From positions 378,990 to 442,989 of the forward strand of contig BCKL01000019.1 in assembly GCA_001600635.1 (NCBI GenBank): DNA of 64,000 bases, in the 5' to 3' direction. This document shows, piece after piece, positions 40,900 through 56,504 of the stretch. A program made the position numbers and the translations under genes. Every line of letters begins with the position of its first letter. Position 1 is the first letter of the stretch. This stretch comes from Leucosporidium creatinivorum (taxonomy: Eukaryota; Basidiomycota; Microbotryomycetes; Leucosporidiales; Leucosporidiaceae). Under the pieces are notes generated by a model. It worked only from the letters and a program-made list of their open reading frames with translations, had not been told where the DNA came from and searched no databases.

Positions 40900-41859
40900 A
40901 CGGACAATCTCGGCTTCGGTTCTCGTGTTGCTTTCTCTTCCGTTTCTTAATCAGGTGTTCCTCCCCGCTACTCGGGCTTGTCTTTTCTCATCCGCTGTGT
41001 TCTCCCTTATATCGCCTTCTACCTCCCTCTTCTCCCCTTTGCTTACCCACACACTGTCCTTTCTCCCACACCCACCCATGTATCTATGACCCCTACTCTT
41101 CTCGGTGATAGAGGCCTTCTTGAAGGACGATTTCTCTTCCCTCTCCCATTTTCTTGCTGTGCTTCGTGACGCTGTAGTTAGCTGTCCGAGTAAACAAATG
41201 GAACAATGAGTTCCCAAGCATCTCTAGCCTTGACCGAGAGAGACTCCGCGCGAGCCACACAGAGAGCGAAAAAGACGGCCGAGCTTCGGCGATCATTCGT
41301 CGAGGTGAACCTGACCTCGCTTGGCCTTTGAGAAGCTGCTGTAGACTTGAATAGTGATGAGATGTGGGTGTCGCTTCCCCCGACTGCTCGGAAGAGCTAC
41401 AGAACGACTCGAACTCGACCGCGAAGGATCGGTCCACCTTCGCCGAGCCGACAAAGGGGGGCTACTCGGCAAGGGGAAGCAGAACAAGCGCCGAGAGATG
41501 AACACCGTCTACAGACTGTGCTAGGCAGCGCCGAGCGGTGCGTCACAATCCCTGCAGCAGAAAGGACTCTCTGCCTTGCGTGCTTCGCAAGCTTCAGCTC
41601 AGCTCCTTAGCCTCCTTCCATATCCCCCTCGTCGTCTCTTGTCGCCGCTCGTTTTCGGACTTCTCGGACAGCTCGGCCGGCTGCAGCGCTACAGAACTCC
41701 AATACAGCCTACGCTACTGCTCCCCGCTCAAACCTCGAACGCGCCACCCAAGCTTTCGAGCGTAAGTGGAGCCTTGGCGCGCTTTGTAGCCCCGCTTTCA
41801 AGCTGATAGAAGCTTTTATCGGTCTACAGAGCTACAGAGCTACACGCCTATCATCCAAC
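40900..41859. other. intergenic, promoter of heme oxygenase gene
   Basis: About 960 nt. A pyrimidine-rich 3' flank runs from 40900 to 41160. The rest holds no recognisable gene. Confidence 0.35.
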
Positions 41860-43018
41860 ATGGCCGCCCTCTCCCTTCCGACGCCCTATCCTTCCCTCCC
41901 CTCAACGCCTGGACCTCTCGCGCTCAATACACCCCCGTTCAGCACACCGCCAGCTGTACCAAACTCGGTCGGCCTAGCTCAGCGTCTGCGTGAAGCTACA
42001 GCGCAAGCACATCAGGATGTCATGATGCCCGCCGTTGTGCACCTTCTCGTCAAAGGCCAACTTTCGCGGTCCATGCACCTGCGGTACTTGATGCTCCTGC
42101 ATGGCGTCTACTCGGCATTGGAGGACGCGCTCGCTGCTCATGCTACCCACCCTTGCTTGAGTGGGGTGTACGATCCGGCGTTGCTGGCGAGGGCAGGGGC
42201 GTTGGAGGCGGATTGCGAGTATTATACGGGCGAACGGGAATGGAGTGAGCAGAGTGAGGAGGGGAGGAAGTTGAAGAGGGACAAGCCTGAGGCGGTGAGG
42301 CTGTATGAGGCGAGGTTGAGGGATCTCGGCGAGAAGGAGGAGGGCGAGACGGGCGAGAGAAGTCCGACGCTGCTGCTCGCGCATGCCTACGTTCGCTATC
42401 GTGGGTCTACTTCGCACTACAGCTCTTCGGAGCACTCTCACTGACATCCTCCTTCTCCCCACCACAGTCGGCGACCTCTCCGGCGGGCAAGCGATCGCCC
42501 GTTCCCTCCGCAAGGCCTACGCCCTCCCCTCCTCAGGCGAAGGGTCAGCCTTCTACGAGTTCTACCTCCCCAACACCGTCTCCTCCACTGGTCTACCCGA
42601 GCGCGCCGACCTGAACGAGACGAAGCGGATCAAGGAGTGGTTCAGGGAGGGATTGGATCGGGCGGGGGAGATGATGACCGAGGAGGAGAGGGTGAGGGTG
42701 TTGAGGGAGGCGAGGGAGGCTTTCGTGTATAATATTGGGGTGCGTTGTCTTTCTCTCTGTGCGCAAGAGCTCCCGAGCTAAGCCCCTTATCTCCCACAGC
42801 TCTTCTCCTCCTTCGACCCACTCCTCGCCGCCGACCAAATCCAAGCCGAAGTCTCCGCCGCCAACCACCAGGACGCGCACGACCTCAAGGCAGCAGCACT
42901 CAAGCTCTCCGTCCAGCCACCGACCCCCTGGCCCGTCTTCGCCGGCGTGGCTTTGGCCGTCGTCCTCGCCATCTTTGTCGCGACGAGGGGACTTGTGGAG
43001 GAGAAGATTGCGCTTTAG
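41860..43018 (+). CDS. HMX1: heme oxygenase with C-terminal membrane anchor
   Basis: Enzyme that opens heme to biliverdin, CO and iron, tethered to the ER face by a tail anchor; used in iron reuse and heme detoxification. The ATG at 41860 starts a Pro-rich leader, then LAQRLREATAQAHQDVMMP, where the His is the proximal heme ligand of the family. RYLMLLHGVYSALEDAL follows in the helix after it. The signature LGDLSGGQAIARSLR (distal helix, GDLSGGQ) lies just after the first intron (about 42400-42468). FYEFYLPNTV and EAREAFVYNIGLFSSFDPLL complete the fold. The end is a hydrophobic helix, WPVFAGVALAVVLAIFVATR, followed by a short luminal tail. Three exons, about 335 aa, the size of other fungal Hmx1 proteins. 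All key motifs are kept, so activity is likely. Confidence 0.93.
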
Positions 43019-43534: not shown

Positions 43535-43646
43535 CTGGCTGGCGAGGGTCGAACTCGCGACCATCACGTTCCATTTGGCTCGTTAAACGAGGTTTTCCGA
43601 ATTGAAAGTATAAGCATGAGGCTCTGACCGACTGAGCTACAGAGGA
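43535..43646 (-). pseudogene. tRNA-Ile(UAU) copy with damaged acceptor stem
   Basis: This copy keeps the D arm, anticodon arm with TAT, intron and T arm of the intact gene at 51998-52109. The last four bases of the acceptor 3' strand are lost: the strand reads CAGCCAG where CAGAGGA is needed, so pairs 1-4 of the stem fail apart from a G-T wobble. The homology with the other copy stops exactly here, which marks a rearrangement breakpoint inside the tRNA. It probably does not yield a working tRNA. Confidence 0.8.
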
Positions 43647-44415
43647 GAATTATCCTGCACCCTTTCCGAGTTGCGTACGAGTAGAGCGAGCTCAATTGGA
43701 CCAGAAACAAGGGAGAACGAGGGAAAAGAAGATTTCTGCTCGGCGTCGACTTGGCGACACTCTCCTGGCTCTGTAGCTGATCGCCTACTCTGCTTGTTAG
43801 ACAGAGCACACCCTGAAGCTGTATCGTTTCCCTGCTACAGGTCATACTGCCGTGAAACTGCTGTACAACGGTGCAATAGTGCGATTGACCCTGGCATCAT
43901 CTCTTGGTCTTCCCCTTCGTTTCGCCCGTTCTGTTCATCGTCTGCCATTGCCAGTTGGACAGAAGTTATCACAAAGATGTAGCGCGGCGCTGGAATGCTT
44001 GAAGTGACCCCGAAAGTGGCGTACAGGCGCTCGACGACTCACGCGGCGCGCCGGCGTTCTCGGTGGTCTTGCTTCTCGCGCCCCGCTCATCCTGCACGTC
44101 GCCTGTTGCCTTCTCACTTGCTCTGCAGCAGATACAGACCTTACTATCGTGCTGCTGCAGCGTTCCAAATCGCCAAACCGGCTTCTTTGCGCCTCAGGTT
44201 AGAGCGCGCCGACCTGACCCCATCGGCGCCGAGCTGAGTCCTTCTGCTGCACGTGCCTCTGCCAGCTCTGCGCTCTGCGTGCAGCCACGTATTCTTCCGT
44301 CACTCTTGCTTGGCGGACCTGCAACGCATCAATGTCGCCTTCTGTCAAAAAAACCGCGCCCCTCTCTCGAGCCTGAGGAGCTGAGCCTTCTGTCGGCGCA
44401 AAGCTCGCGAGGGTC
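43535..44415 (-). repeat. left arm of the large inverted repeat
   Basis: Nearly identical, in reverse complement, to 51085-52109. It runs from the broken tRNA outward end to about 125 bp past the permease stop. Only scattered single-base differences are visible, plus one missing block of about 146 bp that is present in the right arm. The frames open within it mirror the same DNA and give no independent sign of coding. Confidence 0.9.
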
Positions 44416-44539
44416 TCCCTTGACCGATCGGGGTCTATGAAGCACAAATAATATTCCTGAATCTATACCAGTCTACACGCGAGTCCCAAAAGCTGCACAG
44501 ATACCCATAAGCCCTACAGATGTCACCTCGGCGGCGACT

Positions 44540-47224
44540 CTACTTTGATCCCTTCGCATCCGAGCTCGCGTCCTCCTCCATCGGCGTACTAGCTCCTCCC
44601 CACATCGCCTCTCCCATCGCGTAAGGTGGTAACTCGTCCTTGAGGAGGTGACCGTGAGTGTCGGCCATCTCACAGAACTTGAGGCGAGCGGCGAGCTCCT
44701 CGTTGCCGGGAGGGAGGAGAGGGACGGGGAAAAGCTTGGTGAGGGCGTAGTAGATAAAAGCGGAGGTAGAGAGTGAGATGACCCATCCTACAGTGAGAAA
44801 GGTCAGCGAGGAGCGGAGAGCACAGGAAAACGAGCAGCTCACCCGAAGAGTACATCCGAGAAGCAGGCGAGCCGACCTTGGCGGGCATGTAGGCCTCGAT
44901 GAGCCCAGGGAGGACCATCGCCTGTGGGTGAGGTGCATCAGACGCTTGCTTCGTAGCGGTAGAGAAGCGGACCACTCACAATACCCGAGATGAAGCCGAC
45001 GAAGCCGCGCCAGTTGTTGCGAATCCGCGAGTTGAAGCAGTAGATGGACGAGATGTCGCGGTCGTAGAAGGAGGGGACGTGGTAGTTGCCGCGACGAATG
45101 ACGTAGAAGTCGACGAGGATAGGACCGGTCACCGATGCCCTGTAAGGAGAGAGGACGAGTCAGTTCTCGGCGCGGATTGAAAAGCTCTGACGAAGCGTCA
45201 AGAGAGAGCTGGGAGCGAAATACTCACATGAAGAAGGTGTAGGAGCCGAGGAAAGTGAGCTGTGCATGAGGGGAGGATCGTCAGCTGCAGATCTGGAGGT
45301 TCCAGCTCCGACCATCCATCGCCGAGAAGTGGTCGAGCAGCGGCAACACCGAGAGAGGGGAGGGTAGTGTGTAAGCGGACTCACGAACTTGGCTCCCGAG
45401 GTGAAAAGCATCCAGGGAACACATGCGGGAGAGATGGCGGCGATGATGAACTGACCTCGCTTGAACGAGATCCACCTGGGGAAGAGCGAAGAGACGTCGG
45501 CAGCCTGCAGGATGTGGTGCAGGTGGTCAGTCTGGGTCTCTTAGAGCTGCTGCTGAGCCGCTCAGACGTACGAAGGGGACGGTGTTGGCGTAGGCGTTGG
45601 TCATCGTGGAAGAGAAACCAAAGCCGAGCGCGATGATGAAGCATCCGAAGCGAGTCTTGGCCGACCACTCGTTGTCGAGAATCAGGTCGAGCTGATCCCA
45701 GATCTGTAGGCAAGGAGCGCAGATGAGCACGCATTCGTGACCAGGGCAGAGGGCGAAGAACGCCTCACGTTCCACAGGGGAGTCTCGAGGTTGTACCGGA
45801 AAGTAAGGAAGGATGTTGCGAGGATACCGAGGAAGACAGAGAGCACCTGTTGGTAAGCAGATGATCAGCTGTAGCTCTTTAGAAGTCCGCTTAGGCGCCT
45901 GCCGGGCGGCTGCGCTCATCGCCGAGCAGACACCCACCTTGGTAGCGAAGAAGGCGGCTCCCTGGGGCCATCCGGCAGCCTTGGGTCGGGAGGCGTAGCG
46001 AGTGATATCCGATACGTTACTGCACTGAGGAGCAATGGACGCGACGATGGAGTTGACGCCGCTCAAGAACGCCCACGCCTTCGCTGACCAGGTTGCGAGG
46101 GTCGTTTGTTGGAAGGAGAAGCCGGGGAAGGACTCTCCGGGCTTGTGGAGGCCGAGGTAGGCGCACCATCCGAAGAGGGCGAAGTAGACGATGGGACCGA
46201 TGATGGAACGGGCGTTGAACCAGAAGGCCAGCTTGCGAGGGACGACGAAGACGAGGGGGAAGATGATGATCCAGGCGATGAAGAAGGCGAGGATGAGCTG
46301 GGCCGAAGCTCCACCGGAAGAGGCGCCCATGACGGGTAGCCAGTCGTTCCACTGCATGGGCAGGGAGTTCAGCTACGCTTCGGCGAAGCTGTGAAACGCC
46401 TCGGCAAACTCACCTTATAGCCGAAAATACACCTCAGCATGATCTTGACCATGTAGCCGACGTAAAGCGCTTCCACCGCGTACCCTGATTGTGTACAGAA
46501 GAGAAGGGAGGCGACGAGCAAAGGTCAGCTCGGCGGGAAGAGCAAAGCAAGCGCTATCGGTCGAGTCTCGGCAGCGTACAGATGACTCCGACCAGTCCAC
46601 GAAGCATGACAACCCATTTAGCACCTGGTGGGGTTGACAAGCAAAGTCAGCAGAGGGTTCACTTCGCTCATCTGCCGCGCCGAAGCTCACCTCCGACGCC
46701 GAAAGTCGCGCGAATGAGCGAGGGGAATCCGATATGGTACTTGGCGCCGGGCATGCCCATCAGAGTGATGGCTACAGCGGCGAAGAGGGCTGAAGAGGTG
46801 TGATGGTAAGCCTCAACGTTTCAGTGAGAAGAGTCGCCGAGCTCCGACTCACAACCGATGATGACGGGAGGGCAGCATTGAGTGACGGTGAGTCCAACGT
46901 TGATGAAGGAGGATCCGATCTATCGTTTGGAAAGGGAAGGGGATTGCGGGTGCTCGAGTCAGCAGGGTGAAACGGCGAAAAGGGAGGGCGACTGAGAATC
47001 GGCTCACGTTCCACTGATTGATATCGAAGCTCGGGCCCGACCAGACAGCGATGAAGTCAAGTGCAGACCAGGTGCGCTCAGCAGGAGGGGTAGGCAGCGT
47101 TTCCTGGCGGGGATGGGGGGTCAGCCAAGCAGCGACCGAGGCGGGAGCGGCGATAGCTCACCTTGTTCACCCCTTGATAGCTTCCTTCCTCCTCCTCGAT
47201 CTTGTACTTGTCTAGTGCTCCCAT
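44540..47224 (-). CDS. NCS1-family permease (uracil/allantoin/thiamine type)
   Basis: Plasma-membrane symporter of the nucleobase-cation-symport-1 family (Fur4, Dal4, Thi7 relatives). The ATG at 47224 starts MGALDKYKIEEEEGSYQG. TPPAERTWSALDFIAVWSG and PSFDINQWNIGSSFINVGLT match the family's first two helices. Further helices: AVAITLMGMPGAKYHIGFPS, ATFGVGGAKWVVMLRGLVGV, LILAFFIAWIIIFPLVFVVP, SAKAWAFLSGVNSIVASIAP, VLSVFLGILATSFL, RFGCFIIALGFGFSSTMTNA, GQFIIAAISPACVPWMLFTS, FLGSYTFFM, TGPILVDFYVIRRGNYHVPS and WVISLSTSAFIYYALTKLFP. The hydrophilic tail ends at the stop at 44540. At least a dozen exons. It faces away from the P450 gene with only 297 bp between the starts, so both may share control. 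The substrate cannot be set from sequence. Confidence 0.9.
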
Positions 47225-47521
47225 GGTGTACGTCGGTAGGCGATTGTGGAAGGTGAAGCGAGCGAGAGAGAGTGGGGAAAAGAGGAAGGAGATGAGCGAG
47301 CGAGGGGGAAGGGGATGAACGTCAAGTCGGTATCAGGTATCGGCTTCTATCGCTCTCTTCCGTCTCCCCCACACTTTCTTTCGGCTTCGGCTGGTCGTCG
47401 GAGGATGAACCAGGGCCTTGGTGAGGCTCCCCTTCCGCTCGGCCGTCTTATCTACCCGCCAGATTGATCTCGAACGACCTGTATCCCAGTCTTATCGTGC
47501 CCTCGTCGAAGCTGTACCAAG
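47225..47521. promoter_or_regulatory. short divergent promoter of permease and P450
   Basis: 297 bp separate the two start codons, so the promoters must overlap or share sites. This supports co-expression of uptake and oxidation genes. I cannot name a binding site with confidence. Confidence 0.5.
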
Positions 47522-49538
47522 ATGGACGCCTTGCAGCATCTGCACCCCTACACAGAACCAGCACTCGTCGTTTTCAGCCTTTGCCTCCTCTTCCTCGCCG
47601 CCCAATCGCTTCGCCTCGCCTTCTTCAGCCAGCCGCTGAGCAGCATCCCAGGTCCGCTCCTGGCCAAGTTCACCAACAACTGGGCTCTCTACCACCAACT
47701 CAACGGTCGCAAGTTTGCCAAGGTACACGAAGCCTTTCTCGCGCATGGCCCGGTCGTTCGCGCTGGGCCTTCCACCGTCTACATCGCCGACTACAAGCTT
47801 CTTGGTGCTGTGTACCAATCCAAACTTGACAAGGTACATCTGAGACCTCACTGCGAGCTTCTCGACTCCCACTGTCGCTCGCCGTGCTGATTCAACCTCT
47901 CATCTCTCGCACCAGATCCCAGCTTACGCCGGCTTTAAGACGAACCGAGGAGTTCACAATGCCTTCTCTTCCATGTGACCTTCCGGCCCACCTCCCGCGA
48001 TTGATCCTGCGCTGACTAGACACGGTACAGCGAGGCCAATGTCGCCTCTGGTCGTCGCCGAGGCATGCTCCCTCAATACGCTACCGCATCCCTCCTCGAA
48101 TGGCAGGAGACCTTCGACTCTCATGTACGTATTCTTGACCTGTAGCAAATCAGAGAACTCGCAGGGCTCACCCTTCTTCCTCGCAGATCGAAGAGCTTCG
48201 CACCGTGATTGAGCAGTTCGGCCCCGACACGAGCATCGACGTCCTCTCCTGCCTTGCACACGTCCTCATCGATGTCAGCGCTTCTCCTCCTGCTCATCTT
48301 TCGAGCTGTCTGCTCACCTAGCTCGCCTGCAGGTTCTCGGCGAGATCGTTCTCGACTGCAAGATCAACTCGCTCGGCGATTACGCCAAGGGCAAGAAGAA
48401 CCCCATCGTGCGCGCTATCACCCTCTGGCCCAAGCGTGGAACAATTGTGAAGTCTGCGTCACTCTCTCGCCCGTTCCCTCACTCATATCTCGCTTCTCGC
48501 TTGCGCAGATGGGAGTTCTGCCGAGGCCAGTCTGGGCGATTCTTTCGCGCATCCCTTACGCACCTTGGCAGGACCTTGTGCAGAGTGATGCAAACCTAGC
48601 TGATGTGAGTTTGATTTCTTCAGTCAATCGGCTTCTCGAGCTGAGCCCTTCCTCTCCTTCGTAGTTCGTTCACCCTCGAGTCGTCGAGGCGCGGGCCGCT
48701 CTTGAGCGTGGAGATGCCCCAGAGCGGCGCTCACTCGCTCACAGGCTCTCTGTTGCCCAAGACTCGCATACGGGCAAGCTTTGGCCGCAAAAGGACGTCA
48801 CCGCCGAGTGCATCGACCACTTCGTGAGTCGCGCCGAAGCTCGGTCGAAGCTCGAGCTGACGATTTTCGGTCTCTCCCGTAGCTCGCCGGCACCGAGACC
48901 ACCTCTACTACTCTCACCTACGCCCTCTACACCCTCTCGAAACGCCCCGACGTCATGGCCAAGCTGCAGGACGAGCTGGACGAAGCGTTACCCGACGCCG
49001 AGCTCATCGGGCTGCAAGAGGCGGGTCGTCTACCCTACCTCAACGCCGTCCTCAAGGAGACGATGAGGCTCTGCACGGCAGGTCCTGGAACGTTTGATCG
49101 CATCGCTAAGGACGGGATGGAGGTGCATGGCGTCTATTTGCCGCCCGGCACTGTCGTCGGCCTCCAATCGTACACGCTGCACCGAGATCCGATGGTGTGG
49201 GGAGAACCTCTCGGTGAGCTTTCGTCTCTTGTCTTGAGCACACCGGTTGATCAATGCTGACGTCCTTTCTTCGAGCAGTCTTCCGTCCCGAGCGATGGTT
49301 TGAGGAGACTCAGGAAATGAAGGCCTCTTTCATCCCCTTCTCGGTCGGCGGTCGAGCCTGCCCTGGTCTCAACCTCGCCTGGGTTGACATGCGCCTCCTT
49401 CTCTCCGCCATTGCAAGGCGGTTCAACGTCTCGCCAGCTCCCGAGACGACCGACGAGTCGATGGCCCCCTTCGACTTGGCCACCGTATCGCCTATGAGCG
49501 GGGAGTGCAAGCTGTTCTTTGAGCCTAGGTCTTTGTAG
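47522..49538 (+). CDS. cytochrome P450 monooxygenase
   Basis: ER-anchored heme-thiolate monooxygenase. The ATG at 47522 begins MDALQHLHPYTEPALVVFSL, a membrane anchor, followed by a proline-rich hinge (SIPGPLLAKFTNNW). The I helix holds AGTETTSTTLTYALY, the oxygen-activation motif. The K helix has LPYLNAVLKETMR (ExxR). The PERF-like segment is VFRPERWF, and the heme loop is FSVGGRACPG with the axial Cys. About ten short exons joined in phase; roughly 500 aa, normal for the superfamily. It shares a divergent promoter with the permease and is followed 282 bp later by a short-chain dehydrogenase in the same direction. That order fits hydroxylation then oxidation or reduction of an imported compound (inference). 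Family number not assigned. Confidence 0.93.
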
Positions 49539-49820
49539 TACTGCAAGAGGTTGTTGCCTATGTGACACAGCGAAGGCAGAGTCTCGGAAATTGGAGGCGA
49601 ACTTGCGCCGAGAATCATCGCCGAGAAGGCTTCTCACGACTTGGCACTGCTCTCGACGCCACTCACCACAGGCTCAATATACAGCTGCACCGTTTAGGCT
49701 CACCTTCGCCTGCAGGCGGATCAGCTTTACCCCGCTCTTTCGGCTCCAGCACCCCCGCTCGCCTCTCCAGCTCCGACGAAGCTCGTTTTCCCTCAATCCG
49801 CATCTCGATACGCAGCAGCA

Positions 49821-51018
49821 ATGGCACCGACACTACAGGGAAAGGTTGCTATCATCACTGTGCGTAGCTCTCTGGCTCTGAACTCGTCTTTACTGAGCTG
49901 ACGCGCGATAACGAATCGTGCAGGGCGCGGCCAGCGGAATTGGACTCTCTACAGCTCTGGTGAGTCCGGAGGAGCACCCAGCAGATACTCTTCAGCTCCT
50001 TGAGGCTTACAGGTGCACATCTACAGGCATTTCTCGCCGCTGGCGTAGAAGGCCTTGCTCTCGTCGATCTCTCGCTCGCCGCACTTCAAGACGCGTTCTC
50101 CTCGGCGCTCGCTACACCTGGTGGACAGCAGAGGATCCTACTACTAGCAGCAGACGTTTCCGACGAGGCTTCGGTCATTTCCTACGTCTCTCAGACGGTC
50201 GAGCGATTCGGCCGGCTGGACATTTCGGTGCAGAATGCTGGGATCGCTCAGCAGCCGATCAGTATCATGGAGCAGGATGTAGATGGGTGGGATCGGATGA
50301 TGCGCGTGAATGTACGAGGTCGTGAGTGATTCTTACAGCTTTCGGTGCCCTCTCGGCGCTCGTTGACCTCTCCTGCGTCCGCTTCGCAGCCTTCCTCGGG
50401 GTCAAGCATTCGCTCAAAGCTATCTTGGAGTCACCAAACGGCGGCAAGGGAGGCTCCATTGTCCTCACTGCTTCTCAACTCGGCTTGGATGGCGCGCCCG
50501 AACTCTCGGCATGTAAGCTCGGACTTGCGGGGCTTCGCCTTGCTTCGTTAGCTGAATTCCTTGCCTTCAATAAACCAACCAAATCCTACCTCCCTTCTCT
50601 TTCTTCCCTTCATTCGTCCTCGCTTAGATTGCTCCTCCAAGTTCGCCGTTCGAGGACTGATGCTCTCGGCGGCGGCGGAAGCTGGTCCCAAGGGCGTACG
50701 GGTGAACGCTATCTGTCCAGGACGTGAGCAATCTATCTCAAGACTCGTTCGCCACGCTTTTGGAGCCTCAGCTCTGCGCCGGATCGAGCTGACCCTTCTC
50801 CTCTCGCCTTCTTTGCTCCCTCTACAGCCGTCGTGACGCCTATGATGGAAAAGACACCGCGCGAGCAGTGGAGCACGTTTGCAGGGAAGGCAATGCTAGG
50901 ACGGCTGGGTCAGCCTGAGGAGATTGCCGGCGGCATCCTCTTCCTTGCCTCGGAGGAGAGCGCCTTTGTGACGGGCACATCCCTCAAGGTAGATGGCGGG
51001 TGGAGTCGGTTTGCCTAA
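49821..51018 (+). CDS. short-chain dehydrogenase/reductase (classical SDR)
   Basis: NAD(P)-dependent oxidoreductase of about 265 aa in six exons. The ATG at 49821 starts [13 protein letters not shown], and the next tiny exon supplies [12 protein letters not shown], the Rossmann TGxxxGIG loop. VQNAGIAQ is the NNAG-type motif. The active-site Ser lies in [15 protein letters not shown] and the Tyr/Lys pair in YCSSK, split by an intron whose junction builds the Tyr codon. [19 protein letters not shown] and [20 protein letters not shown] close the fold. All catalytic residues are kept. It ends only about 70 bp before the right inverted-repeat arm. With the P450 and permease it makes a three-gene cassette; substrate unknown. 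Confidence 0.92.
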
Positions 51019-51794
51019 TTGACGTTTGCTACACGCTTTGATGAGATTCAGCAAGCTCTACATGCCTCGTCGCCGGCGGCTTGCGGAGACACGCGAGCTT
51101 TGCGCCGACGTAAGGCTCAGCTCCTCAGGCTCGAGAGAGGGGCGCGGTTTTTTTGACAGAAGGCGACATTGATGCGTTGCAGGTCCGCCAAGCAAGAGTG
51201 ACGGAAGAATACGTGGCTGCACGCAGAGCGCGGAGCTTGCAGAGGCACGTGCAGCAGAAGGACTCAGCTCGGCGCCGATGGGGTCAGGTCGGCGCGCTCT
51301 AACCTGAGGCGCAAAGAAGCCTGTTTGGCGACCTGGAACGCTACAGCAGCACGGTAGTAAGGTTTATATCTGCTGCAGAGCAAGAAGGCAACAGGCGACG
51401 TGCAGGATGAGCGGGGCGCGAGAAGCAAGACCACCGAGAACGCCGGCGCGCCGCGTGAGTCGTCGAGCGCCTGTACGCCACTTTCGGGGTCACTTCAAGC
51501 ATTCCAGCGCCGCGCTACATCTTTGTGATAACTTCTGTCCAACTGGCGATGGTAGACGATGAACAGAACGGGCGAAATCGAAGGGGAAGACCAAAAGATG
51601 ATGCCAGGGTCAATCGCACTATTGCACCGTTGTACAGCAGTTTCACGGCAGTATGACCTGTAGCAGGGCAACGATACAGCTTTAGGGTGAGCTCTGTCCA
51701 ACAAGCAGACGTAGGCGATCAGCCACAGAGCCAGGAGAGTGCCGCCAAGTCGACGCCGAGCAGTAATCTTCTTTTCCCTCGTTCTCCCTTGTTT

Positions 51795-51940
51795 TTTTTT
51801 GGATCTAATCAGGTTCATTACGAGTAAAAAGGCTAAGCAAGTCTACCTAGAACAGGTGTGGTGATGAGGAGAAGAAAGGATGGGGAGAGAAATACTGCTA
51901 AGTACGCCCGAGAAGGACAGTGTGGGACTCCGATCGCTTT
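51795..51940. repeat. 146-bp insertion in the right arm, flanked by TTT
   Basis: The left arm reads straight through CTTGTTTCTGGTCC where this arm carries an additional block. Both edges lie in TTT, which could be a 3-bp target duplication. The block has a T-rich start and no open frame; it is not identified with any known element. It could equally be a deletion in the other arm. Confidence 0.6.
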
Positions 51941-51997
51941 CTGGTCCGATTGAGCTTGCTCTAGTAGTACGCAACTCGGAAAGGTGGAGGATAATTA

Positions 51998-52109
51998 TCC
52001 TCTGTAGCTCAGTCGGTTAGAGCCTCATGCTTATACTTTCAATTCGGAAAATCTCGTTTAACGAGCCAAATGGAACGTGATGGTCGCGAGTTCGACCCTC
52101 GCCAGAGGA
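51998..52109 (+). tRNA. trnI-UAU: tRNA-Ile(UAU), with 39-nt intron
   Basis: A full cloverleaf can be drawn. Acceptor TCCTCTG pairs with CAGAGGA; the D arm is GCTC...GAGC; anticodon stem TCATG pairs with CGTGA (one G-T pair); the loop is C-T-TAT-A-A; the T arm is GCGAG-TTCGACC-CTCGC. The intron (52036-52074) lies one base 3' of the anticodon, the standard eukaryotic place. The anticodon TAT reads AUA, a rare Ile codon in this GC-rich genome. The mature length is 73 nt. It is the only intact one of three copies in the window. Confidence 0.93.
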
Positions 52110-52375
52110 ATACCCTTTTGTAGGCAATCAGCCGGCGTCAGGATTATGTTTCGGAGCAGAGGGGGCCAACCGGCGCCTTCTTTTTGCCTTCCTGGAGTAT
52201 GTTGCTGCCGAGGTGGCTTGTTTTGCCACAGTGTTGGCGCTCTGTGTGCTCTTACTTGCCAAGAGGGATTGCGATCAAAGTAGGAGGGCCCATTGTAGGT
52301 GAGCCAGCAGCACACGGTCCAGCCTTGGACTAGGTCTCGGGATTCATGTTGCCTTGTCTGCTATGGTTTGCAACT
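52110..52375 (+). repeat. arm of second inverted repeat (tRNA downstream flank)
   Basis: This stretch, which directly follows the intact tRNA, is repeated in reverse complement at about 56175-56445. Identity is high next to the tRNA and fades towards 52375. It is poor in CpG compared with the rest of the window. Confidence 0.85.
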
Positions 52376-53395
52376 CTTCGGCCCCAAGCAGCTAGCCCCA
52401 GACACAGAGCCTGTCTTGATGGTCTTGCACTGCAAGTCACCCTCAGGGTCTGTCCCTGCACATTTTCACATCCGCCCGTCTTGGAGTCTTGGTGTCCTCA
52501 TTGCAGGGGCCCGCGGTCGTCGGGAGAGACGAGAGCTGTCTTCCTGCTTATTGGCGAGTCGAGACGAGGAGATGCGAGTCGAAGATGAAGCTCTCGAGGA
52601 GGGACGAGGTCGAGAACAGTGTATCGAGTATAAGTTGCGAAGGAATAGATGAGAGATGGGGGATGTAGCTGAGCAAGGCGGAAGGCGAGGGAGGGGGAAG
52701 GAGTGCTAAGGAAGGGAAGAGTAGATTCTACGTTCAACACCCGAGTGACCCCGCTGCAGCGCACTATAGCCCATCTGAACCGAGACTGAGGTCGATGAAC
52801 CTTGAGCAAGGGTGAGCGTTGAAGCGAGCCGGAGTTGAGGGGCGAGATTAGGACCGGGGAAGGTGAGGAGTCGAATCGGGAAGTTGGGTGAAGGTCGAGG
52901 GGGGCGAAGGTTTTGGCGACGGGGAAGGATGAGGGTTGACAGCGATGGGAGAGGGGTTGACAGCAATGGCGATGGCGATGGCGAGGATGTCGATTGAGTT
53001 GGAGGAGAGATGTGGGCAAAAGGCTTGAGACCGAAGGAGCGACTGAGGGAGGAAAATGGGGACCGAGCCAGCAGTGCCGAGTCCTTCAGACAGGGGCGGC
53101 CGACCCGCTGAGTCAGCGCGTGTACTAGAGAGATGTGGGAGAGAAAAGGCACTCAACTAGAGGACCGATGGGCGAGCGAGTGTGAGGAGAGCGAAGGATC
53201 CTTGCACTCATGGATGCAGTCCAGCCATGCGCAACTGCTGTGACAGCAGTCAGCCTGCAGGCTCATGTATACACCATTAGTCTGGCAGCTTTGAGCCAGC
53301 CTGCACATTGTCAGGAAAGCTGGGACGGCTGATGAGGTGCTGTTGGGTGTCCTGATGCGGGCGGCGGCAGTGATGCCGCAAGAGTTGAGACTCAC
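52376..53395. other. gene-poor stretch inside the second inverted repeat
   Basis: About 1 kb. A missing last exon of the hydroxylase gene would be expected at its right end, but the usual NYGKxxRxWD-type segment is not found. Long minus-strand frames (52498-53152) are low-complexity Ser/Pro/His translations without domain. Parts of it (52400-52510, 53170-53330) are CpG-poor. Confidence 0.4.
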
Positions 53396-54063
53396 CAGGC
53401 TTGCCGTAGCGGTGGTGCTGTAAGATGTTATGTCAGCGTGTGGATGAGTGGACGGCAAAGAGCTGTATGTACAAGATCATGGTCTTCAATAGTAATATCA
53501 GTTCCGAAGGGCAAAGTGCTCAGCCAGGTGTTGGTGCATGGCGCGTGCATCTGCACTCCCGAGTGACCGAGCGTCTCCACGTAGGCCAAGCAAAGATATA
53601 GGACCTGCTGCTTGCCGCAGGGGAGAGGTACAAATGCCAAAGGAAGCATTGGAATCACCACAATCTCCATAAAATATTGGGCGTGAGTCCCGAGGATTGT
53701 GTGTGCCATGGTTGAGTGCTTTAACCAGTGGTGTAGGGCATGAACCGACCACAAGAAGTCAATCTGTATAAAGGTACAATGAGAGAAACAAGGGAGAGCG
53801 AGGAGGAAAGAGGTCAGCTTCGGCTCGGCGAAGATCCCCGGCTCGGCCAGGTTCTGCGGCTCGACCTCTGCGCTCTACTGCAGCTTCTCAAGTGCTGTAA
53901 GACTCACCTCATGTGTAGCGCGGTGGTAGGCGTAGAAGACGTAGTCCATGATGATGAACCACGCCTGCCAGCGGAGGATGTAGGTCCAGGTGAACTCGCT
54001 CAGGTGTGCAGCAGTGGGGTCGTACTTAAAGGTGATGTTGTAGCCGACACGGGAGAAGTCCAT
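53396..54063 (-). pseudogene. fatty acid hydroxylase/sterol desaturase-type gene, 3' truncated
   Basis: Di-iron membrane hydroxylase superfamily, normally in the ER. From the ATG at 54063 (the frame is open to about 54135) it reads MDFSRVGYNITFKYDPTAAH and TWTYILRWQAWFIIMDYVFY, then the His motifs in order: YHRATHE; after an intron VHALHHW; ETLGHSGVQMHAP; and, across a 55-nt intron (53418-53472), EDHDLHHRYGKP. All His boxes are present, but the conserved end of the family after this point is not found before 53160. Codons such as TTA, CTA, GTA, ATT and GCA are frequent here and rare in neighbouring genes. I read it as a 3'-truncated relic or transferred gene, although a far-off last exon is not excluded. 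Confidence 0.65.
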
Positions 54064-54420
54064 GGGGACACCATCCTCTCTCTCAGCAGCCCATTTTGAT
54101 GAGTTTGCTGACTCCCCACACACCCCGGTCCCCAACTAGCCTCTTCCTGCCTTTGTGCTGGGCACACAGCGGCAACTTCTCTATTGCACCCATGACAAAG
54201 GATCAACTGCCCCTGCACTTGAGCTGGGACCACAACTTCCTCATGTACTGCTGCCTTTGAGCTTGAGAAAGTTGGGGGCCATCACACTTGCTGCAGTGGT
54301 CAGGTAGGTAACTAGAATTCGGAGCTGTTCTCTAAATGAGCAAGGAAAGACAAGGGAGAGCGCTACTGCAAGTTTTGGGGGAAGTCTGGCTCGTTGCCTC
54401 GTCGTCTCATCTCAGCTCGC

Positions 54421-55938
54421 CTAAGTCAACCGATCTCCAACTACTACAAGGTAAGCCATCCTCCCCATGAAGATGAGGAGCATGGAGCATCCGAAGAGGC
54501 CTCCTGCAATGGTCGGCGCGAGCCAGTGGACCGAGGGCTTCGCCGAGGCGGCAAACCACGCGAGGGAGATGGGTAGGAGCTGTAGGTGAGTGAGATCAAC
54601 GTCAGCTCGGCTATCCTGCAGAGGTCCAGCATCTCCTCCCCAATTCTGGAGAAGACCAGCTTCTCCTCAGCTATCCTGCCGAGAATCAGCCTCTCCTCGC
54701 TCGACTCACCACTCCACGAATGCAAGCTCCCCTCAACCGCTCCTCGGGCGCCAGAGGTCCATCCGATTTGGCCAGCTTCTTGCCGTAGAGGATTGAGTTG
54801 TAAACGGTTCCCGCCATTCCAAAGAGCATTCCGATGCCCACGGCGATGAAGGGGAGTCCTGCGGGTCCTTCCTTCCATCCTCGGTCTTGTACAAAGACAA
54901 CGGGATAACATCCGAACATCAAATACAGGATGCCGTAAATGATAGCTGTAGGGGAGTAGGAGGTCAGCTCTGGGCTCCCTGGCAGCAAGAAAAGCGACTC
55001 ACCAGCGTAGAGAGCAAAAAGCATGACAATAGGCTTGTGGAAGAGGAGGACCAAAGGTCGAGTGAAGTAGGTCTTGATGGAGGGTATACTCCGACCGCGA
55101 ACGTAGACGTCGTAGAGCAATTTGTAGGTCTTGCCGGTGGCGGCGCTGAGAGCCATCGCACGGCGGCGGAGAATGACGGGGGCCTGTAGGGAGGCAGGTC
55201 AGCTCCAGCTTGAGTATGAGAACCCAAATCATGTACATGCGTCTCGGGGATGAACACTCCGCCGATGAGGCATATACCGGAGAGGATGCTGCGCAGAGAG
55301 GGTCAGCCGAAATTCAGGATCTCGCTCAGAGAGCTACTTACGTGGTGATCCAGAACAGCCATTGCCACTTCCATGATCCTACGTAGCCTCCCACAATGGG
55401 CCCGAACACGGGTCCTGTTTTCCCCCTCTCATCAGCACTCACACCTGCCACAGTTCTCGGACCATCAGAGCTCACCTAAGAAGGGATCAGAGCACACACC
55501 ACAAGGGGGACTCCGTGCCCCTGTGCCGTGGAGACACCCCCGACAACACCGGCGAAGTTGGTGAGCGGCACACTGCCAATGATCCGGCCAGCATGCGGCA
55601 GACATTGAGCGTTTCTGAGGGAGCGCCGAGCAGGTTAGCAGGAAGCGCTGGAGGCGGCTGAGAGCACCTAGGTCAAGCATAGATGTACCAATGTTCTTCG
55701 GACTGCACATGAGATTTGAAGGATGAAGAAGGGGATAAAGGTGGAGATGAAGACTGGTTGGCGCCCGATGAGCTTGCTCATGGGAGCCCAGAGCATTGCT
55801 GTAGTGGTGCAGAGAGCCAGCAATCTGCTAGCGTAAGTGTGAGAGAAAATCACGCACACCCGATTCCCATGCCACCGACATAGAATGAGAGGCCGAGCAG
55901 GGCGACGGTCACGGACAGAAAGAGCAGCCCAAAGATCA
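54421..55938 (-). pseudogene. MFS drug/polyamine-type transporter, truncated at both ends
   Basis: Middle of an MFS (DHA1) transporter. Visible in order: SVTVALLGLSFYVGGMGIGS, MLWAPMSKLIGRQPVF (the TM2-3 loop), STFIPFFILQISCAV, GPVFGPIVGGYVGSWKWQWL with FWITT, ILSGICLIGGVFIPETHV, RRRAMALSAATGKTYKLLYD, FTRPLVLLFHKPIVMLFALY, SPTAIIYGILYLMFGCYPVV, GPAGLPFIAVGIGMLFGMAG, LLPISLAWFAASAKPSVHWL and APTIAGGLFGCSMLLIFM. Just after this the family pattern stops and the frame ends at 54421, so TM11-12 are missing. Upstream, TM1 is missing or replaced by unrelated coding-like DNA. It therefore looks like a host gene broken by the rearrangements. The last intron contains a 30-nt tandem repeat. Confidence 0.7.
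54609..54698. repeat. 30-nt tandem repeat, three imperfect units
   Basis: Units at 54609-54638, 54639-54668 and 54669-54698 share the pattern CTATCCTGC-GAG-CAGC-TCTCCTC (gaps vary). They lie in the last intron of the truncated MFS gene and, being a multiple of three, are open in frame on both strands. Confidence 0.85.
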
Positions 55939-55980
55939 GTGATTTGTGCCGCTGGAAGGGTTGTAGCAGCTCTTCCTCAC

Positions 55981-56161
55981 CTTGCGGCACTTATACACCA
56001 TCATCTCAGTCCCTCCCACGTACACGAACAAGCCAAGAGCAACAGCTGCAGGGCAAAAAGGGTCAGCCTGGGCGCCGTTGTGCGGAGAGCGAAGGGCAAG
56101 ACTTACTGAAGGTTGCTGAGCTGGAGGTAATCAGGTAAGCCCATACATATGCAGTACAACA
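55981..56161 (-). pseudogene. unassigned two-exon coding-like fragment
   Basis: Two short exons with good signals (donor GTAAGT at 56106, branch GCTGACC, acceptor before 56045) read AYVWAYLITSSSATFT and VALGLFVYVGGTEMMVYKCR. They look like two membrane helices with a basic end. The fragment ends at the border of the repeat at about 56175 and does not join the MFS frame downstream. I cannot name the parent gene. Confidence 0.4.
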
Positions 56162-56174
56162 GCTAGAAGGGCCT

Positions 56175-56445
56175 TGCAAAATCTGTAGCGGGGGCAGACG
56201 AGGCAACAAGAACCCCGAGACCTAGTCCAAGGCTGGACCGTGTGCTGCTGGCTCACCTACAATCGGCCCTCCTGCTTTAATCGCAATCCCTCTTGGCAAG
56301 TAAGAGCACACAGAGCGCCAACACTGTGGCAAAACAAGCCACCTCGGCAGCAACATACTCCAGGAAGGCAAAAAGAAGGCGCCGGTTGGCCCCCTCTGCT
56401 CCGAAACATAATCCTGACGCCGGCTGATTGCCTACAAAAGGGTAT
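56175..56445 (-). repeat. second arm of second inverted repeat
   Basis: Reverse complement of about 52110-52375. Next to the tRNA fragment the two are nearly identical; the far end is ragged with small gaps. The pair encloses 3.8 kb with the broken hydroxylase and MFS genes. Confidence 0.85.
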
Positions 56446-56504
56446 TCCTCTGGCGAGGGTCGAACTCGCGACCATCACGTTCCATTTGGCTCGTTAAACG
56501 AGGT
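56446..56504 (-). pseudogene. 3' half of tRNA-Ile(UAU)
   Basis: Carries the acceptor 3' strand, T arm, variable loop, anticodon-stem 3' strand and the last part of the intron of the tRNA-Ile gene. Homology ends inside the intron at about 56504, so the 5' half, including the anticodon and D arm, is absent. It marks a second breakpoint within a tRNA sequence. Confidence 0.85.

Follow-up and report, generated by a model that had tools for sequence, protein, structure and literature searches.

A tRNA-anchored inverted duplication around a three-gene block in Leucosporidium creatinivorum, one of a series in the assembly

Introduction

In the basidiomycete Leucosporidium creatinivorum, genes for an NCS1 permease, a cytochrome P450 and an SDR lie side by side between near-identical inverted repeats that reach into transfer RNA (tRNA) sequence. 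Does this block form a discrete element, or do the three genes merely occupy the space between two copies of a tRNA locus? The question was addressed in a window of 64,000 nucleotides, by which the whole stretch of DNA that was analysed is meant (C19:378990-442989; contigs carry the prefix C), within a 27.7-Mb assembly of 63 contigs, and all counts given here come from this one assembly. A sequence-only reading of the locus had seen in it what looked like a discrete uptake-and-oxidation cassette enclosed by arms ending in tRNA-Ile genes, of a form not known to have been described in fungi. The explanation that we regard, with moderate confidence, as the best one is a local inverted duplication at a tRNA gene followed by sequence exchange between the arms, in which the metabolic genes are passengers.

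The inverted arms and their tRNA locus

The features that define the locus are as follows.

43539..44409, minus strand: left arm (t'A'), an inverted partial copy of 51092-52105 without the ~143-bp insert
51092..52361, plus strand: central locus A-t-B, the tRNA gene flanked by A on its upstream and by B on its downstream side; a template-like full copy
51998..52110, plus strand: complete tRNA gene, read as Ile(UAU); Rfam 51 bits, model positions 1-71 of 71
43539..43646, minus strand: tRNA-Ile(UAU) remnant in the left arm; Rfam 33.8 bits, model positions 5-66 of 71
56194..56504, minus strand: right outer piece (B't'), an inverted copy of 52053-52361, 98% identical, which ends inside the tRNA intron
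56450..56504, minus strand: 55-bp direct repeat of 43539-43593, 100% identical, comprising the tRNA 3' half and part of the intron

The arms were delimited by comparing 79 kb, that is the window and 15 kb to its right, with itself at a cut-off of E<=1e-10. Two inverted matches were obtained, of 43705-44409 with 51092-51794 (96.2% identical) and of 43539-43707 with 51938-52105 (94.7%), and between them the right arm carries about 143 bp (51795-51937) without a left-arm counterpart. Only six repeat pairs were recovered in the 79 kb, four of which belong to the tRNA locus and two to gene fragments of 86% identity, so the arms are not due to chance. It was borne out that near-identical inverted arms stand at 43539-44409 and 51092-52105, with 95-96% identity, and also that they fit the gene set tightly, since only 124-131 bp (NCS1) and 67-74 bp (SDR) separate the outer stop codons from the arms; the left-arm homology may extend to about 44416. 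A DNA-level search of the assembly found the arms, together with the three-gene DNA, at this one locus only, and Pfam, at E<=0.01, recognised none of the four longest frames of the arms, three of which are in the left arm and one in the right.

The tRNA gene of the central locus contains a 39-nt intron (52036-52074), which was placed by hand and from which the anticodon UAU was read; ARAGORN puts the intron elsewhere and labels the tRNA Pro, and a tRNA tool with bacterial settings found no tRNA. The copy in the left arm breaks off inside the 3' strand of the acceptor stem, the end of which is absent. For this reason, the description of both arms as ending in tRNA-Ile genes is true of the right arm, where the gene is complete, but not of the left, where only the partial copy is found. 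Across the assembly, a pattern for tRNA-Ile(UAU), itself a narrow one, matched the left and central copies only.

The same tRNA locus has a further inverted copy on its other side, in which the downstream half (52053-52361) reappears at 56194-56502 with 98% identity. Both halves of one tRNA locus have inverted copies, and both outer pieces end inside the tRNA gene. From left to right, t'A' is followed by the three genes, A t B, the gene fragments and B't'. The two outer pieces overlap, in direct orientation, over 55 bp that are identical, and could join into one continuous copy. Inverted duplicates of single-copy DNA are present at both ends of each segment, the one with the three genes and the stretch from B to B'. 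The arms are, in their anatomy, partial, local and inverted duplications around a tRNA gene read as Ile(UAU).

Duplicated tRNA flanks across the assembly

In the part of the assembly that was examined, the arms of the window belong to a class in which tRNA genes have been multiplied within a contig, more often in inverted than in direct orientation. This class was described from several samples. Rfam scoring covered 63 of 485 candidate tRNA loci, a sample selected by score, and flanks were compared around 54 ARAGORN calls in 45 sources; ARAGORN mislabels at least tRNA-Ile and one tRNA-Leu, and its call C5:126785 is doubtful. A search with a joined tRNA query, in which 40 of 84 candidates were scored, is not a census of truncated copies. 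A table of 66 tRNA genes was compiled and its isotypes labelled by hand, with both truncated copies included; left out were the copies on C46, which mirror those on C45, the doubtful calls C54:21022 and C5:126785, and the genes whose isotype was not read (C45:1-99, C46:60166, C55:1453, C19:58309, C1:1861661, C1:441441, C37:213548 and C31:191303).

In this table, 48 of 91 same-isotype pairs lie on one contig, against 4.4 expected and a maximum of 12 in 5000 shuffles, and adjacent same-isotype pairs are mostly opposed, both within 50 kb (20 of 25, p 0.002) and at any distance (23 of 31, p 0.005). It was observed in the flank comparison that every homology of at least 180 bp with a called tRNA links two places on one contig; none of the cross-contig homologies, among the matches listed, held a called tRNA. 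The copied flank around multiplied tRNA genes measures about 0.2-2 kb.

Among adjacent same-isotype pairs with copied flanks, 14 of 20 are inverted and six direct (one-sided p 0.058). The inverted pairs are spread over 12 contigs (C10, C11, C12, C13, C15, the window locus, C25 twice, C26, C3 twice, C43, C45 and C8), those on C10 and C26 holding two isotypes each and being counted once; the direct ones are found on C11, C12, C13, C19 (a tRNA-Cys pair) and C4 (twice). When the distance is below 10 kb, eight of the nine pairs are inverted (p 0.02), a figure in which a copied flank was required and the tRNA-Gln arm pair of C26 was counted once; the 66-gene table gives nine of ten for the same distance, two of them being the tRNA-Gln isotypes of that single arm pair. 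In all, at least 14 inverted tRNA-flank duplications, about 80 to 99.7% identical, were found. According to a survey of tRNA genes in eukaryotes, parallel orientation prevails among pairs no more than 1 kb apart (PMC2888827); the opposed excess described here contrasts with this, although the distance range of that survey is shorter.

In the pairs that were looked into, the DNA enclosed by the arms differs from locus to locus. It comprises about 2.8 kb with a gene that by eye resembles a sugar transporter on C26, where the arms extend past the compared stretch and are longer than stated, about 4.2 kb on C3, 3.8 kb with a predicted gene on C15, 0.5 kb on C13, 1.1 kb on C8, and, on C45, about 8.1 kb in which other predicted genes and a weak remnant resembling an integrase are found. 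On this last contig, the inverted tRNA-Ser arms are 99.2% identical, and an enclosed frame matches Phage_integrase at 24.9 bits, below the Pfam cut-off of 27.1; C46 seems to mirror this stretch.

Duplications may also end inside a tRNA gene, as both outer pieces of the window do, the left copy in the acceptor 3' strand and the right one within the intron. Elsewhere on the same contig, a direct repeat of 1110 bp (C19:145219-146328 and 151344-152453, 100% identical) starts at the acceptor 3' strand of a tRNA-Cys and stops in the intron of another tRNA, for which Leu(UAG) was read and which ARAGORN labels Stop; the two copies surround about 5 kb of repeat-rich DNA. A partial copy of 232 bp on C45, 91% identical, stops near position 36 of a tRNA-Ser, beside the intron. 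Five such ends were noticed, which is not a genome-wide enumeration: the acceptor strand accounts for two, and the other three fall within the intron or next to it.

Origin of the duplication

Since the same pattern recurs at other tRNA genes of this genome, the permease, P450 and SDR genes look like bystanders, DNA that would simply happen to lie between the copies. The process may have begun at the tRNA gene, where the DNA broke or its synthesis stalled, and joining or template switching onto nearby DNA in the opposite orientation would then have produced the inverted copies. In yeast, inverted duplications have been attributed to fold-back after breaks (PMC10622511) and to template switching between leading and lagging strands, in a study that cites fork stalling at tRNA genes (PMC11790251). 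Later, the arms may have exchanged sequence by gene conversion, as their patchy identity suggests, and a short dispersed element would have inserted upstream of the central tRNA gene only. The arms may occasionally cross over and flip the 6.7-kb segment between them, by analogy with the flip/flop region of Saccharomyces. The proposal that duplicated edges permit inversion holds in this respect only as far as form is concerned, the arms being inverted and their identity patchy.

Conversion is suggested because the differences between copies are clustered. The left copy presents 34 difference events in 866 columns, with a longest identical run of 162 (run-test p 0.028), and the right copy six events in 309 columns, with a longest run of 223 (p 0.003); the divergence of the two copies showed no reliable difference (Fisher p 0.12).

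Several observations weigh against this explanation. A clustering test on bin variance gave p 0.023 for the left copy, which is moderate, and p 0.053 for the right, which is weak, and the identical runs could reflect constraint instead of conversion, the run in the right copy including tRNA sequence. The inversion excess over all 20 pairs is marginal only (p 0.058). In most other pairs the tRNA sits well inside the arm, so that ends within tRNA genes are not the rule. Lastly, the splitting of one full copy would more neatly explain why the two partial copies meet within 55 bp.

It is from this last observation that the strongest competing explanation arises. A circle carrying the three genes, A-t-B, the fragment stretch and a full inverted B't'A' would have been opened inside t', leaving the 55-bp overlap, and joined between the heme oxygenase and carboxylesterase genes. 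We consider this possible but clearly the less likely course. The outer pieces are indeed complementary halves of one inverted copy, with 55 identical bp overlapping in direct orientation, and they share one base at which the central copy differs, but the difference may simply have arisen later in the central copy. The gene fragments of 86% identity, which stand in permuted order, with orientation kept, relative to their full-length counterparts, are compatible with a circle, although they are far older than the arms. Circles of this kind have been documented in wine yeasts (PMC3053389), but this assembly holds no second insertion site or permuted copy, and, if the central tRNA alone is intact, its native place would need explaining.

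Alternatively, two neighbouring segments would have been inverted, each through a staggered break that started in the tRNA gene, so that each kept an inverted duplicate at its far end. This would account for the inverted duplicates of single-copy DNA that flank each segment, a signature described for inversions in Drosophila mojavensis (PMC3355041), and the identical 1110-bp repeat at C19:145-152 kb ends inside two tRNA genes, as would be expected, but it is direct and not inverted. Two events would be needed, both reusing one tRNA gene; we regard this course as unlikely.

Other mechanisms that link tRNA genes to structural change were also considered. A single crossover of the Campbell type into the tRNA gene was rejected because the outer flanks fail to continue the tRNA at either end. 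A tRNA island of bacterial style was set aside, no integrase having been found in the window segment and the match below cut-off belonging to the unrelated C45 pair only. A centromere, as the parallel with fission yeast would have it, is not favoured, since ordinary genes lie inside.

A broader proposition is offered tentatively, as more speculation than result. In this organism, tRNA genes would be recurrent points at which DNA breaks or its synthesis stops, and from them inverted copies, of gene and flanks alike, would be seeded along the chromosome throughout the genome. Those copies that end inside tRNA genes would do so at the acceptor 3' strand or in the anticodon-intron region, some copied segments would pass through a circle, and tRNA-bounded, possibly invertible gene blocks would in this way be a standing feature of the chromosomes.

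Genes between the arms and the cassette hypothesis

The gene models of the window are approximate, having been produced by a home-made gene finder that fuses neighbouring genes, and Pfam was run on the spliced models.

44540..47224, minus strand: NCS1 permease gene, approximate model with 12 exons; PF02133 Transp_cyt_pur, 8e-65
47522..49538, plus strand: cytochrome P450 gene, approximate model with 9 exons; PF00067 p450, 4.2e-65
49821..51018, plus strand: SDR gene, spliced by hand, 6 exons, 259 aa; PF13561 adh_short_C2, 4.6e-58

The identification of the three genes was confirmed by these matches. A compact functional gene set exactly between inverted arms is what a mobile metabolic cassette, or a composite transposon bounded by the arms, would look like, and the sequence-only reading, too, saw a discrete cassette here. 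However, comparable arms at other tRNA genes enclose unrelated DNA, either other genes or less than 0.5 kb, the three-gene block is single-copy in the assembly, with arms at this locus only, and no mobility family was recognised among the scanned proteins and open frames. No target-site duplication was seen either, as no k-mer of 5-12 bases is common to the 40-bp flanks outside the two outermost ends, the only flanks to which this test applies. For these reasons, the cassette was dropped as the leading explanation, and we hold it to be very improbable.

An arm duplicated by the assembler is the least credible source of the pattern: contigs C25, C45 and C13 do start in repeats or tRNA sequence, and an end appears to be common to C45 and C46, but a comparison of the arms shows 33 substitutions in 873 columns, besides four small indels and the insert of ~143 bp, and the locus lies within a 615-kb contig.

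The dispersed element and the stretch between B and B'

Two further features accompany the duplication.

51795..51937, minus strand: insert present in the central copy only, the 3' end of a dispersed element ending in GATTAGATCCA(A)n
52362..56193, no strand assigned: stretch from B to B', with gene fragments and a dispersed repeat

Some 60 bp separate the insert from the central tRNA gene, which lies downstream of it. The insert has 13 matches in 12 other loci, with up to 98% identity, and another search found further places; copies were seen on C25, C5, C13, C4, C35, C20, C21 and C59, and those upstream of tRNA genes are on C25 (three times), C5 and C13. The copies have their A-rich 3' end in common and vary at the 5' end, and for this reason the insert fits a 5'-truncated retroelement, whereas a solo long terminal repeat (LTR), which was also considered, was dropped on the same grounds. 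These features are consistent with a retroelement fragment that favours the surroundings of tRNA genes and perhaps targets them. As for its timing, the distribution fits either arrival after the duplication or loss from the left arm.

In the stretch from B to B', 53400-54072 and 54446-56189 match two genes at C19:445-452 kb, one for a fatty-acid hydroxylase and one for an MFS protein, at 86% identity, and 52506-53180 matches C15 at 78%; its ten open frames gave no Pfam match. The counterparts of the two fragments, C19:445474-446147 and C19:450153-451900, are in opposite orientation and permuted order. Between the fragments lies a dispersed repeat (54322-54442), 90-92% identical to C5:92675 and C20:566877. 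To the left of the arms, a 213-bp piece (41740-41954) of a heme-oxygenase-like gene, named from its protein by eye, has a 98% copy at C24:335167-335379, which is possibly a templated insertion.

Comparison with known systems

The impression that no fungal element of this form had been described was not upheld, because the flip/flop region on chromosome XIV of Saccharomyces has it: there, inverted repeats of 4.2 kb, each starting at a tRNA-Ile gene, surround 24 kb that has been inverted repeatedly in the past, and the authors inferred its growth from an older opposed tRNA-Ile pair (PMC9731477). Common to both is a gene block between near-identical inverted repeats of at least about 1 kb with tRNA sequence at their outer ends. 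In three strains of the flip/flop system, one of the two arms carries a Ty3 element or LTRs a short way upstream of its tRNA, a place that is taken here by the dispersed element. The flip/flop arms contain two protein genes and an intact tRNA each, whereas here no protein gene was recognised in the arms and the left tRNA is broken; moreover, the Saccharomyces block is bounded by tRNA-Ile(AAU) and known in both orientations, while the 6.7-kb block is known from one assembly. Unlike flip/flop, the locus described here is accompanied on its other side by a further inverted half copy, and its genome contains many loci that resemble it. No flip was seen in about 53,800 mitoses and 950 meioses of Saccharomyces, and flipping therefore need not be frequent here (PMC9731477).

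Other systems share single traits with the locus. In region B of wine yeasts, extrachromosomal circles combine circular permutation with junctions resembling end joining, which would explain a split inverted copy, but that region has been inserted several times, in permuted form and in different strains, and has a functional replication origin, whereas here one place and no permuted second copy are found (PMC3053389). In D. mojavensis, inverted duplicates of single-copy DNA stand at both ends of the segment, as they do here; the ancestral order is known there but not for the window, and the available part of that account mentions no tRNA gene (PMC3355041). The long inverted repeats of Candida albicans resemble the arms in being of kilobase size and in that recombination inverts the DNA between them, although those inversions were shown by polymerase chain reaction and the repeats listed as novel exclude tRNAs (PMC6591007). 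The peri-core repeats of fission-yeast centromeres are flanked by tRNA genes, and recombination mediated by these genes was suggested by the authors; such repeats are centromeric, whereas the window locus stands among ordinary genes (PMC10085805).

The tRNA-bounded invertible block of Saccharomyces is well studied, and the question of why its repeats stay alike still stands; a genome with at least 14 such duplications would offer a natural age series, with young and old members, along which the formation, homogenisation and decay of such repeats could be followed, and it would link tRNA genes, known sites of fork stalling, to chromosome structure. It is also a caution that a gene block between inverted repeats need not be a mobile cassette. 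Titles and abstract openings, among the matches listed, yielded no fungus for which inverted duplications of tRNA flanks are described as a genome-wide set, which does not by itself show that none has been described. Possibly new, then, are the genome-wide scale and the ends of duplications inside tRNA genes, of which the five described above were seen. The feature of the window itself belongs to such a series and is of a type already described in Saccharomyces: an inverted duplication anchored at a tRNA gene, to which a further inverted half is added here on the other side.

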